Positions 13,412-26,297 of a stretch of DNA of 64,000 nucleotides are shown piece after piece; positions within the stretch are counted from its first letter, which is position 1, and each line of letters begins with the position of its first letter. The notes under the pieces are model-generated. The model worked only from the letters and a program-made list of their open reading frames with translations. It did no database searches and was not told the DNA's origin. Made by a program: the position numbers and the translations under genes. The stretch comes from Sedimenticola hydrogenitrophicus (GTDB lineage Bacteria > Pseudomonadota > Gammaproteobacteria > Chromatiales > Chromatiaceae). Location: contig NZ_JAQGEI010000003.1 in NCBI RefSeq assembly GCF_029017505.1, positions 62,001 through 126,000 on the forward strand, given 5' to 3'.

Positions 13412-13648
13412 CGAAAAAAATCCCGATATCAGCTACCCCAAGTGCCAGGGACTATACTTTAATCAGGCACAGGGGAAGGAGGAAATGTGTTGTGTGAGGT
13501 CTGTTAGCCTGCCACGTGATTCGAGGTGTGATCTGCGGGCCGATTGTGACTGCGAAATTGATCATGTTGCGGTTGATAACCTGTTGATTGGTATAAAGAA
13601 GTTATGCCGAAATGCAGAAGGGACCATTATATCGGCAGAGGAGGCGTT

Positions 13649-14119
13649 ATGGGAATCGCAATTACCTTGAAAGAGTATCTGACTGACCATGGTTCATCCT
13701 ATCAGGTGATTGAACATGTGCGGACGAACTCGGCGCTGGAAACTTCGGAAGTGGCTCACGTGCCCGGTGACCGGCTGGCCAAGAGTGTGCTGTTGGGTGA
13801 CGAAGACCGGTATCTGCTGGCCGTCATCCCGGCGACCCATCGGCTGGAGCTGAACAAACTCAGCGAACTGGTGAAACACAGACTGCAGCTGATCACGGAG
13901 AGCGAGATGGCGGGTGCATTTTCCGACTGCGAAGTCGGTGCCATGCCGCCCATCGGTGAAGCCTACGGGATTGACACCTGGGTCGACCCCTTGCTGCTCG
14001 CTCAACCGGAAATCTATTTTGAGGCCGGCGACCACCGGGCTCTGATCAGAATGACGGGGGATGAGTTCAGGAATCTGCTGAAAGATTCCAAACAGCTGCC
14101 AATGAGCCACCACATCTAA
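13649..14119 (+). CDS. YbaK/EbsC-family aminoacyl-tRNA deacylase
   Basis: A 156-residue single-domain protein of the YbaK/ProX editing family, which hydrolyses wrongly charged aminoacyl-tRNA. The conserved lysine region reads DRLAKSVLLGDEDRYLLAV and the glycine-rich GAMPPIGEAYG segment follows further on. The start at 13649 follows AGAGGAGG with ideal spacing; an in-frame start at 13604 lacks a site. The C-terminus is slightly extended. It is transcribed alone towards tRNA-Ser. The exact mischarged amino acid is not predictable. Confidence 0.88.
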   Translation: MGIAITLKEYLTDHGSSYQVIEHVRTNSALETSEVAHVPGDRLAKSVLLGDEDRYLLAVIPATHRLELNKLSELVKHRLQLITESEMAGAFSDCEVGAMPPIGEAYGIDTWVDPLLLAQPEIYFEAGDHRALIRMTGDEFRNLLKDSKQLPMSHHI

Positions 14120-14311
14120 CCCGATAATCTGCCCCGACGGCATTGCGCCCAAGGGCGTTCTGGTATACCCTTGCGCCTCCAAAAATCAGAGAGGCGCGGA
14201 GGGGTGTCCTTTGCTGCGCGCTGGTTTTGCCCAAAAGGGCGGGCGCAGGCCCGGGTGACGAGACTGCCGCCGCGGCGCTCGTATCGGCAAGGAGCTGAAA
14301 AATACAAATCT

Positions 14312-14402
14312 GGAGAGCTGTCCGAGTGGCTGAAGGAGCACGCCTGGAAAGTGTGTATACGTTAGTAGCGTATCGAGGGTTCGAATCCCTCGCTCTCCGC
14401 CA
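14312..14402 (+). tRNA. tRNA-Ser(GGA)
   Basis: A class II tRNA with acceptor stem GGAGAGC / GCTCTCC, D-arm, anticodon stem CACGC / GTGTG around loop CTGGAAA (anticodon GGA, reading UCC and UCU), a long variable arm, the T-arm GAGGGTTCGAATCCCTC and an encoded CCA at 14400-14402. Four tandem repeats that reuse its 3' end follow directly. Confidence 0.97.
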
Positions 14403-14970
14403 AATTTGTCAACAACCAATGAAGTTGGTAACCGTGGGCAATCGATCAGCCCACGATTCGAACCCTCGATGCAAAAGCAGGTTCGATCGCGGAGCGCGCA
14501 GCGCGCAGCTCCAGCGACCGCAGGGAGCTCATCCCTCGCTCTCCGCCAAATTTGTCAACAACCAATGAAGCTTTGGTAACCGTGGGCAATCGATCAGCCC
14601 ACGATTCGAACCCTCGATTCAAAAGCAGGTTCGATCGCGGAGCGCGCAGCTCCAGCGACCGCAGGGAGCTCATCCCTCGCTCTCCGCCAAATTTGTCAAC
14701 AACCAATGAAGTCAGTCACCGTGGGCGGTCGATCAGCCCACGATTCGAACCCTCGATTCAAAAGCAGGTTCGATCGCGGAGCGCGTAGCTACAGCGACCG
14801 CAGGGAGCTCATCCCTCGCTCTCCGCCAAATTTGTCAACAACCAATGAAGTTGGTAACCGTGGGCGGTCGATCAGCCCACGATTCGAACTCTCGATTCAA
14901 AAGCAGGTTCGATCGCGGAGCGCGCAGCTCCAGCGACCGCAGGGAGCTCATCCCTCGCTCTCCGACAAAT
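14385..14970 (+). repeat. Four tandem ~140-bp repeats carrying the tRNA-Ser 3' end
   Basis: The 18-nt tRNA end ATCCCTCGCTCTCCGCCA recurs at 14531, 14672 and 14811, and ends as a variant (CCGACA) at 14950, giving unit lengths of 146, 141, 139 and 139 bp. Each unit has a hairpin CGTGGGC / GCCCACG around ATCGATCA-like loops. Next come GATTCGAACCCTCGAT, which is the exact reverse complement of tRNA positions 14372-14387 in unit 1, and a GGAGC / GCTCC stem. The arrangement recalls E. coli tyrT, whose tRNA-tail repeats yield rtT RNA. ORFs across the array on either strand are only the repeat read in different frames. Confidence 0.93.
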
Positions 14971-15057
14971 AAATCAATGACTTAGATAGTCATCGTGTCT
15001 AACTTTTAGGGGTGTTTTGGGGTAGTTTGAGCTCCAGTTAGACACGATTTATTTGTC
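14964..15057. repeat. Nested inverted repeat at the island's left edge
   Basis: GACAAATAAATC (14964-14975) pairs with GATTTATTTGTC (15046-15057), and inside it ATCGTGTCTAAC (14992-15003) pairs with GTTAGACACGAT (15037-15048). Between them lies AGGGGTGTTTTGGGGTAG, which resembles the short G-rich repeats often found near integrase binding sites. TTAGACACGAT recurs in direct orientation at 26112-26122. Confidence 0.75.
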
Positions 15058-26111: not shown

Positions 26112-26122
26112 TTAGACACGAT
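26112..26122 (+). repeat. Direct repeat TTAGACACGAT at the island's right side
   Basis: Eleven bases identical to 15038-15048 near the left edge. The shared context continues loosely (ATTTGT a few bases later at both places). Confidence 0.6.
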
Positions 26123-26177
26123 CTGGACACGGCATATTTGTAAGATATTGAAATATAAAGAAACGCTGAATGTTCAA

Positions 26178-26297
26178 ATCCCTCCCTCCGCCAAATTCGT
26201 GAACAGCCAGTGAAGTCAGTCACGGTGGGCAGTCGATCAGCCCACGATTCGAACCCTCGCATCAAAAGCGGGTTTGATCGCGGAGCGCGCAGCGCGT
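26178..26297 (+). repeat. Fifth, degenerate copy of the tRNA-Ser repeat
   Basis: Reads ATCCCTCCCTCCGCCAAATT, then the CCAGTGAAGTCAGTCAC block, the GGGC/GCCC hairpin, GATTCGAACCCTCG and a GATCGCGGAGCGCGCAGCGCG end. The GTCAGTCAC block is shared only with the third tandem unit (from 14672). It closes the segment that starts behind tRNA-Ser. Confidence 0.88.

Follow-up and report, generated by a model that had tools for sequence, protein, structure and literature searches.

The window, i.e. the whole 64,000-nucleotide stretch of Sedimenticola hydrogenitrophicus DNA that was analysed, contains a single tRNA gene predicted by ARAGORN, tRNA-Ser(GGA), which is directly followed by four tandemly arranged units (Table 1). 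Tandem Repeats Finder describes the array by a period of 139, 4.2 copies and 94% matches, and together the two programs confirm the tandem repeats behind tRNA-Ser, with the coordinates and period given in an initial annotation of this DNA. In standard tRNA numbering, which was assigned in this analysis, each unit comprises a spacer, an antisense copy of about positions 46–61, a direct copy of positions 52–58, an insert and a copy of positions 59–76. In every unit, the structured insert splits the T-loop copy precisely at the junction of positions 58 and 59. This interruption and the antisense T-arm present in every unit had gone unnoticed in the initial annotation, according to which all units end in the exact last 18 nt of the tRNA. 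That statement holds for units 1–3 (18/18) but not for unit 4, whose tail matches at 17 of 18 positions (...CCGACA). The antisense T-arm copies match at 16 of 16 positions in three units and at 15 of 16 in unit 4. Folding z-scores based on 200 dinucleotide shuffles are −4.7, −4.0, −2.2 and −2.7 for units 1 to 4, with 0, 0, 5 and 0 of the 200 shuffles folding as well or better.

Table 1. Positions of the tRNA-Ser(GGA) gene, its repeat units and related features in the window
Feature	Position	Strand	Source
Possible decayed 5' module in tRNA leader	14229..14258	+	By eye, against relatives
tRNA-Ser(GGA), CCA encoded	14312..14402	+	ARAGORN; Rfam RF00005, 50.2 bits
Unit 1, 146 nt: spacer, antisense T-arm, T-loop copy, hairpin insert, tail copy	14403..14548	+	
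Unit 2, 141 nt	14549..14689	+	
Unit 3, 139 nt	14690..14828	+	
Unit 4, 139 nt, tail degraded (CCGACA)	14829..14967	+	
Inverted copy of tRNA nt 61-76 (T-arm antisense), unit 1	14455..14470	-	Inverted-repeat search
Same T-arm antisense, units 2-4	14603-14618, 14742-14757, 14881-14896	-	
Direct T-loop copy GGTTCGA (positions 52-58), units 1-4	14480..14486, 14628-14634, 14767-14773, 14906-14912	+	Read from sequence
Structured insert, T-loop copy to tail, 44 nt, unit 1	14487..14530	+	
Structured insert, 37 nt, units 2-4	14635-14671, 14774-14810, 14913-14949	+	
Tail copies, tRNA positions 59-76, units 1-4	14531..14548, 14672-14689, 14811-14828, 14950-14967	+	
Degenerate solo unit: decayed tail, spacer, antisense T-arm, start of insert	26172..26296	+	

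The gene located directly upstream of tRNA-Ser (13604–14119) encodes an aminoacyl-tRNA editing domain protein (PF04073). Within the last tail copy begins a palindromic stretch (14964–15057; arms GACAAATAAATC and ATCGTGTCTAACT) that may represent a small inserted repeat, and TTAGACACGAT-like letters akin to this palindrome precede the solo unit near position 26114.

Window-type units in relatives

A blastn search with the 96-nt core, which extends from the antisense arm to the tail, yielded matches in eight of nine genomes of the genus; for the family, the figures are 22 of 194 genomes and seven of 61 genera. One of the 22, G060, has a 27-nt match only and no unit, which leaves 21 genomes in six genera. 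The named contigs belong to a group centred on Sedimenticola, plus Thiolapillus, a Thioalkalivibrio MAG and other Chromatiales. Presence of the units inside the genus is patchy. When 32 pattern matches were inspected by eye, 23 turned out to be window-type units, several of them loci already in the blastn family set, and nine to be chance matches. Directly behind tRNA-Ser genes are 20 of these 23 units (10 GCT, 6 GGA, 4 CGA).

In 25 loci of relatives, the antisense arm lies 50–60 nt behind the tRNA, and the spacer sequence itself is not conserved. Counting the first unit of each of these loci, 19 have an exact tail (15/15), which reproduces even the single-base differences among tRNA-Ser genes. 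The remaining six comprise three degraded tails (L068, L076, L093), one at a contig end (L075), and those of G036 and G168 with 14 and 13 matching positions, respectively. The mean longest antisense match in the 25 loci is 14.5 for the own tRNA versus 12.7 for other isoacceptors, a small gap because the GGA and GCT genes have most of the T-arm in common. In G008, the sole genome with two loci compared, the units of the two tRNA loci are clearly different.

One hairpin of the window-type insert, the second, has a GNA loop and tandem GA mismatches, and its pairs are kept through two-sided changes (10 cells versus 3.1 expected, a value reached in 0 of 500 shuffles; 15 distinct sequences). By this covariation, the conserved hairpins proposed in the initial annotation are substantiated in related genomes for the window-type units. 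The unit of G036, which departs from the pattern, was excluded from one unit analysis. A second set of repeats in the genus lies in front of tRNA-Ser and starts with the first 22 nt of the tRNA (5' units); in the S. hydrogenitrophicus genome itself, at least two tandem 5' units precede tRNA-Ser(CGA).

Loci with and without units allowed us to place the units relative to the native trailer. For the GGA gene, the trailer of the empty locus L012 is 55% identical to the sequence after the tRNA and 80% identical to the sequence after the unit of the filled locus L008; shuffles, which were made for this comparison only, gave a mean of 55% and a maximum of 66%. For the GCT gene, the trailer of L019 compared with L016 shows 66% identity after the tRNA and 88% after the unit, and compared with L010, which carries two units, 59%, 61% and then 88% after the last. 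Therefore, at these two tRNA-Ser loci of relatives, the unit sits between the tRNA and its native trailer. Spacers between tRNA-Ser and tRNA-Arg measure 52–84 nt in 11 unit-free loci and 186–649 nt in nine distinct loci with a tail copy; L262 was counted on account of a tail copy without TTCGAA, and L264 (589 nt) has TTCGAA arms and no tail copy by the cut used. Loss by tail–tail recombination would give identical empty sites, so that the comparison fits gain and loss of units alike.

Module M across Gammaproteobacteria

In E. coli, rtT RNA is released during tRNA maturation, and to our knowledge it has so far been an oddity of one tRNA operon. The tyrT–tyrV region of strain MG1655 consists of a spacer, an antisense copy of tail plus T-arm, GGTTCGA, a hairpin insert and the tail (59–76). 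Exact antisense matches of 10 nt cover part of the tail in three units and, in the unit that separates the two tRNAs, part of the T-arm. A covariance model (R1) of the three-stem rtT-style insert, termed module M, found the module at E<=1e-4 in 95 of 274 gammaproteobacterial genomes and 83 of 222 genera.

A sample of 157 strong matches at 110 loci was drawn from the best-scoring matches listed. A same-strand upstream tRNA is present within 1000 nt of 81 matches, and 61 of the 157 carry the tail of such a tRNA; these 61, again among the best-scoring matches listed, represent 15 isoacceptors of Ser, Gln, Arg, Pro, Glu and Tyr. Another 18 are mirror-image 5' units that repeat the initial 20 nt of a tRNA lying downstream (Ser, Gln, Arg, Val), 30 are near a tRNA but under the cut-offs, and 48 are without a tRNA in the stretch, some of them owing to a contig end. 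Decoy tRNAs reached the cut-off in 102 of 3178 tests for the tail and in 10 of 3133 for the 5' copy.

In 58 of the 61 tail-bearing units the tail copy starts 18–20 nt from the tRNA end, and an exact copy of the local positions 52–58 precedes the insert in 54. Tails are identical to the own tRNA at 13.6 of 14 positions on average, versus 7.7 of 14 for tRNAs of other amino acids, and a control window shifted by 60 nt contained the tail in none of the 61 cases. The antisense match to the own tRNA is longer than that to the best tRNA of another amino acid in 28 units, equal in 25 and shorter in eight, with means of 10.9 (own), 7.7 (other) and 5.6 (shuffled). One M unit (L184) is located behind a tmRNA, whose tail it matches in part. 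The stems of module M contain 361 cells with two-sided changes versus 92.7 (sd 9.6) in shuffled controls, the alignment having been fitted to the model. Cells with G-T outnumber those with A-C by 36 to 11 (5 to 7 in helix 4), which hints at selection on the + strand as RNA, with the qualification that the model itself favours G-U.

The insert of the window units is not module M: with filters off, the best R1 match over the array and the tRNA leader scores 4.8 bits. This match (14189–14258; E 0.6) falls in the leader, which alone fails to score for module M, compared with 18 bits (E 6e-4) for the leader of G001.

Copies of module M also occur outside tRNA loci, among them one in an hsdS gene and one in a group II intron. 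The hsdS copy is found in the S. hydrogenitrophicus genome itself (G000:C47:20675-20727; L268:1560-2840, − strand ORF), in frame inside the gene for a type I restriction specificity protein (PF01420), where it adds about 27 residues, as judged by eye, between RFPGH and AKFIDS. Also in this genome are an rtT-type 3' unit with a decayed tail behind tRNA-Tyr (L125) and M modules within inverted-end elements (L209, L227, L229, L231) that read TAGGAGCCTGTCGGGTTT..AAACCCGACAGGCTCCTA in the clearest copies, by eye. Three further loci (L112, L189, L190) have a solo M inside CCCTCTCCC..GGGGTGAGGG hairpin-like repeats, likewise identified by eye. The location of M in hairpin-like repeats, T-loops, D-loops and an intron suggests a preference for hairpin loops.

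Origin and possible roles of the units

A terminator-like hairpin lies between the tRNA and the first unit in 26 of 48 M-type loci (1.1 expected) and in the first spacer of eight of 25 window-type loci (0.3 expected). Thus, co-transcription with the tRNA cannot apply to the units in general. By contrast, neither the window spacer nor the E. coli spacers contain such a hairpin, so that transcription into the units is possible there.

Our tentative preference, held with slightly less than even confidence, is that the array in the window belongs to a class-wide set of tRNA-end repeats that would derive from a gene-less DNA element entering at tRNA ends. In the manner of tRNA-targeting integrative elements, such a small element would enter at the T-loop and 3' end; positions 59–76 would be rebuilt by its left end, which would also bring the spacer, sometimes with a terminator, and the displaced native tail would remain at its right end. 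Recombination between the 18-nt tails could then add or remove tandem copies and so help to keep the tails matched to the local tRNA. Where the spacer lacks a terminator, the window and E. coli included, the units would be part of any read-through RNA and could be freed from it as rtT-like RNAs during tRNA maturation. We count in favour of a DNA element the displacement of the trailer, the patchy presence, the terminator-like spacers and the solo M modules outside tRNA loci, together with the frame shared by E. coli, the fixed junction, the tracking of the local tRNA by the tail, the integrase-like gene described below, and a table in PMC2658671 in which rtT differs by a 175-bp tandem repeat between the Salmonella genomes compared.

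Several observations argue against entry of a DNA element. Empty sites could be recombination losses, 139 bp is short for a duplex circle, and simple integration leaves the strict tracking by the antisense arm unexplained. The excess of G-T over A-C in the M stems hints at selection on RNA. The difference between the units of the two G008 loci also counts against it, as does the outcome of the search for mobile DNA: units 1–2 as query found no match in phage and plasmid records, and a search of viral contigs for the core pattern was likewise negative. Neither an enzyme nor an excision product nor a recent jump came to light.

In one relative (G003), an integrase-like gene follows tRNA-Ser(GCT); it is above the cut-off for DUF6538 only, phage-integrase SAM being just under (24.9 versus 27 bits). 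In another (G057, L267:4149-5258), a gene of the phage-integrase family (PF00589), integron-integrase-like by eye, ends beside units of tRNA-Ser(GCT). A Y1 transposase is encoded in 77 of 95 M-positive and 97 of 179 M-negative genomes (odds ratio 3.6, uncorrected for genome size). As an exclusive partner it was rejected, 18 of the 95 M-positive genomes having no Y1 match at E<=1e-5. Two other candidates were discarded. A T-arm-mimic hairpin AGGG..CCCT at the tail is, by eye, missing in L077 and not placed after the tail in L079. Copying from mature tRNA would concern two of 61 units in which CCA is present in the unit and not in the gene, and a one-base loss in the gene would explain both.

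It is possible, though on balance unlikely, that the units have a function as RNA, being transcribed behind the tRNA and cut at the tails by tRNA 3'-end and other RNases to yield a family of structured small RNAs comparable to rtT RNA in E. coli. The ncRNA annotation of rttR in E. coli and the window spacer devoid of a terminator-like site are consistent with such a function, as is the covariation in the stems of M and in the second hairpin of the window-type insert. The G-T excess is the asymmetry expected for a + strand RNA, but the matches behind it were selected with an RNA model, and helix 4 does not show it. Further arguments against a function as RNA are the terminator-like hairpins that precede the unit in part of the M-type and window-type spacers and the existence of solo M-type modules, even within a coding gene.

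The antisense arm might alternatively act as a read-through switch. In any transcript extending into a unit, it would capture the native T-arm, whereupon the RNA would refold and no tRNA would be made, thereby tuning tRNA yield or marking read-through RNA for decay. In the minimum-energy fold of the tRNA plus unit 1, the T-arm indeed pairs with the antisense copy. Leaving aside units that contain N or exceed 260 nt, the M-type folds predict capture by at least eight pairs at 43 of 48 loci, against 10.8 expected when the unit is shuffled; among the window-type and E. coli cases, the figure is 15 of 23. A switch would explain why antisense arm and tail both track the local tRNA. Nevertheless, we consider it improbable: capture largely follows from complementarity itself, eight of the 23 window-type and E. 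coli cases have fewer than eight pairs, the native tRNA would fold first during transcription, and transcription would seldom reach units behind terminators. Acceptor pairing with the distal tail was uninformative as a signal, being as frequent in shuffled controls (44 of 48 observed, 40.6 expected). As far as predicted folds can tell, the antisense arm would be better explained by the RNA accounts than at the DNA level, even though capture is a direct consequence of complementarity.

Returning to entry of a DNA element, one might speculate, at rather long odds, that the antisense T-arm serves as a guide by which a gene-less mobile element finds the T-loop (or, for 5' units, the D-loop) of a gene for a tRNA or tRNA-like RNA through base pairing, with the insert bound by an enzyme. 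If true, this would account for the match of arm and tail to the local tRNA, across 15 isoacceptors and a tmRNA, and for the break at 58/59. Plain tandem duplication of the tRNA 3' end and trailer by replication slippage, implying neither function nor mobility, accords with the tandem order, the decayed terminal units (L044, L048), the similarity of copies within an array and the variable rtT copy number in the Salmonella table of PMC2658671, yet is very improbable: it accounts neither for an inverted T-arm copy and a hairpin insert exactly at 58/59, seen class-wide behind tRNAs unrelated to each other, nor for a spacer of different sequence taking the place of the native trailer.

Comparison with known systems

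A literature search that left most subscription journals outside its scope listed no title on such tRNA-trailing repeats among its matches, and the part of PMC4853749 available contains nothing on them. Integrative elements that use tRNA 3' ends as attB are a known kind. Resembling them, the units at two tRNA-Ser loci of relatives form an extra block exactly at the tRNA end, with the tail present twice and the native trailer lying behind the unit, an arrangement compatible with either gain or loss of the unit, and integrase-like genes lie near the same tRNA or near units in relatives. In contrast, a window-type unit is 139 bp in size, is gene-less and carries an inverted T-arm copy. REP/REPIN sequences with their RAYTs are likewise hairpin modules dispersed in the genome, also within genes, whereas the tRNA-end units are bound to tRNA ends. 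rttR is listed as containing REP in a table of PMC12306157.

The insert of E. coli rtT resembles that of the 5' units located before tRNA-Ser in the genus of S. hydrogenitrophicus, and Rfam splits the two into RtT (RF00391), on E. coli, and AaHKsRNA22 (RF02902), on the 5' units. The latter family, an Aggregatibacter sRNA and a separate sRNA in Rfam, is over the cut-off on two 5' units of one locus (L015) in the same genus (43.5 versus 39.8 bits), other 5' units being below it. It covers 5' units rather than the 3' units of the window, and RF02902 is absent among the Rfam matches in the window.

RtT RNA/rttR of E. coli shares with the window the tandem units behind a tRNA and the order of parts; tRNA, insert and antisense stretch differ. 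E. coli units score 133–138 bits against RF00391, and the family is over the cut-off in three of 20 loci with M units near tRNAs, but no RF00391 match was found in the window at the gathering threshold nor between 13900 and 15200 at E<=5. Hence, the term rtT-like of the initial annotation is apt for build and part order, which are those of tyrT/tyrV, but not for the insert, which is unlike the rtT type and has no RF00391 match. Judged by sequence, the window array and rtT have in common how the tRNA copies frame the unit and where the insert lies, but not the sequence of the insert. Our data suggest that rtT is one case of a widespread, little-described kind of element. Occurring across a class behind many tRNAs and a tmRNA, and as a mirror form in front of tRNAs, this frame would make rtT a general feature of tRNA genes; it provides dozens of natural variants for testing and raises the question of which enzyme or pressure copies tRNA ends in both sense and antisense.
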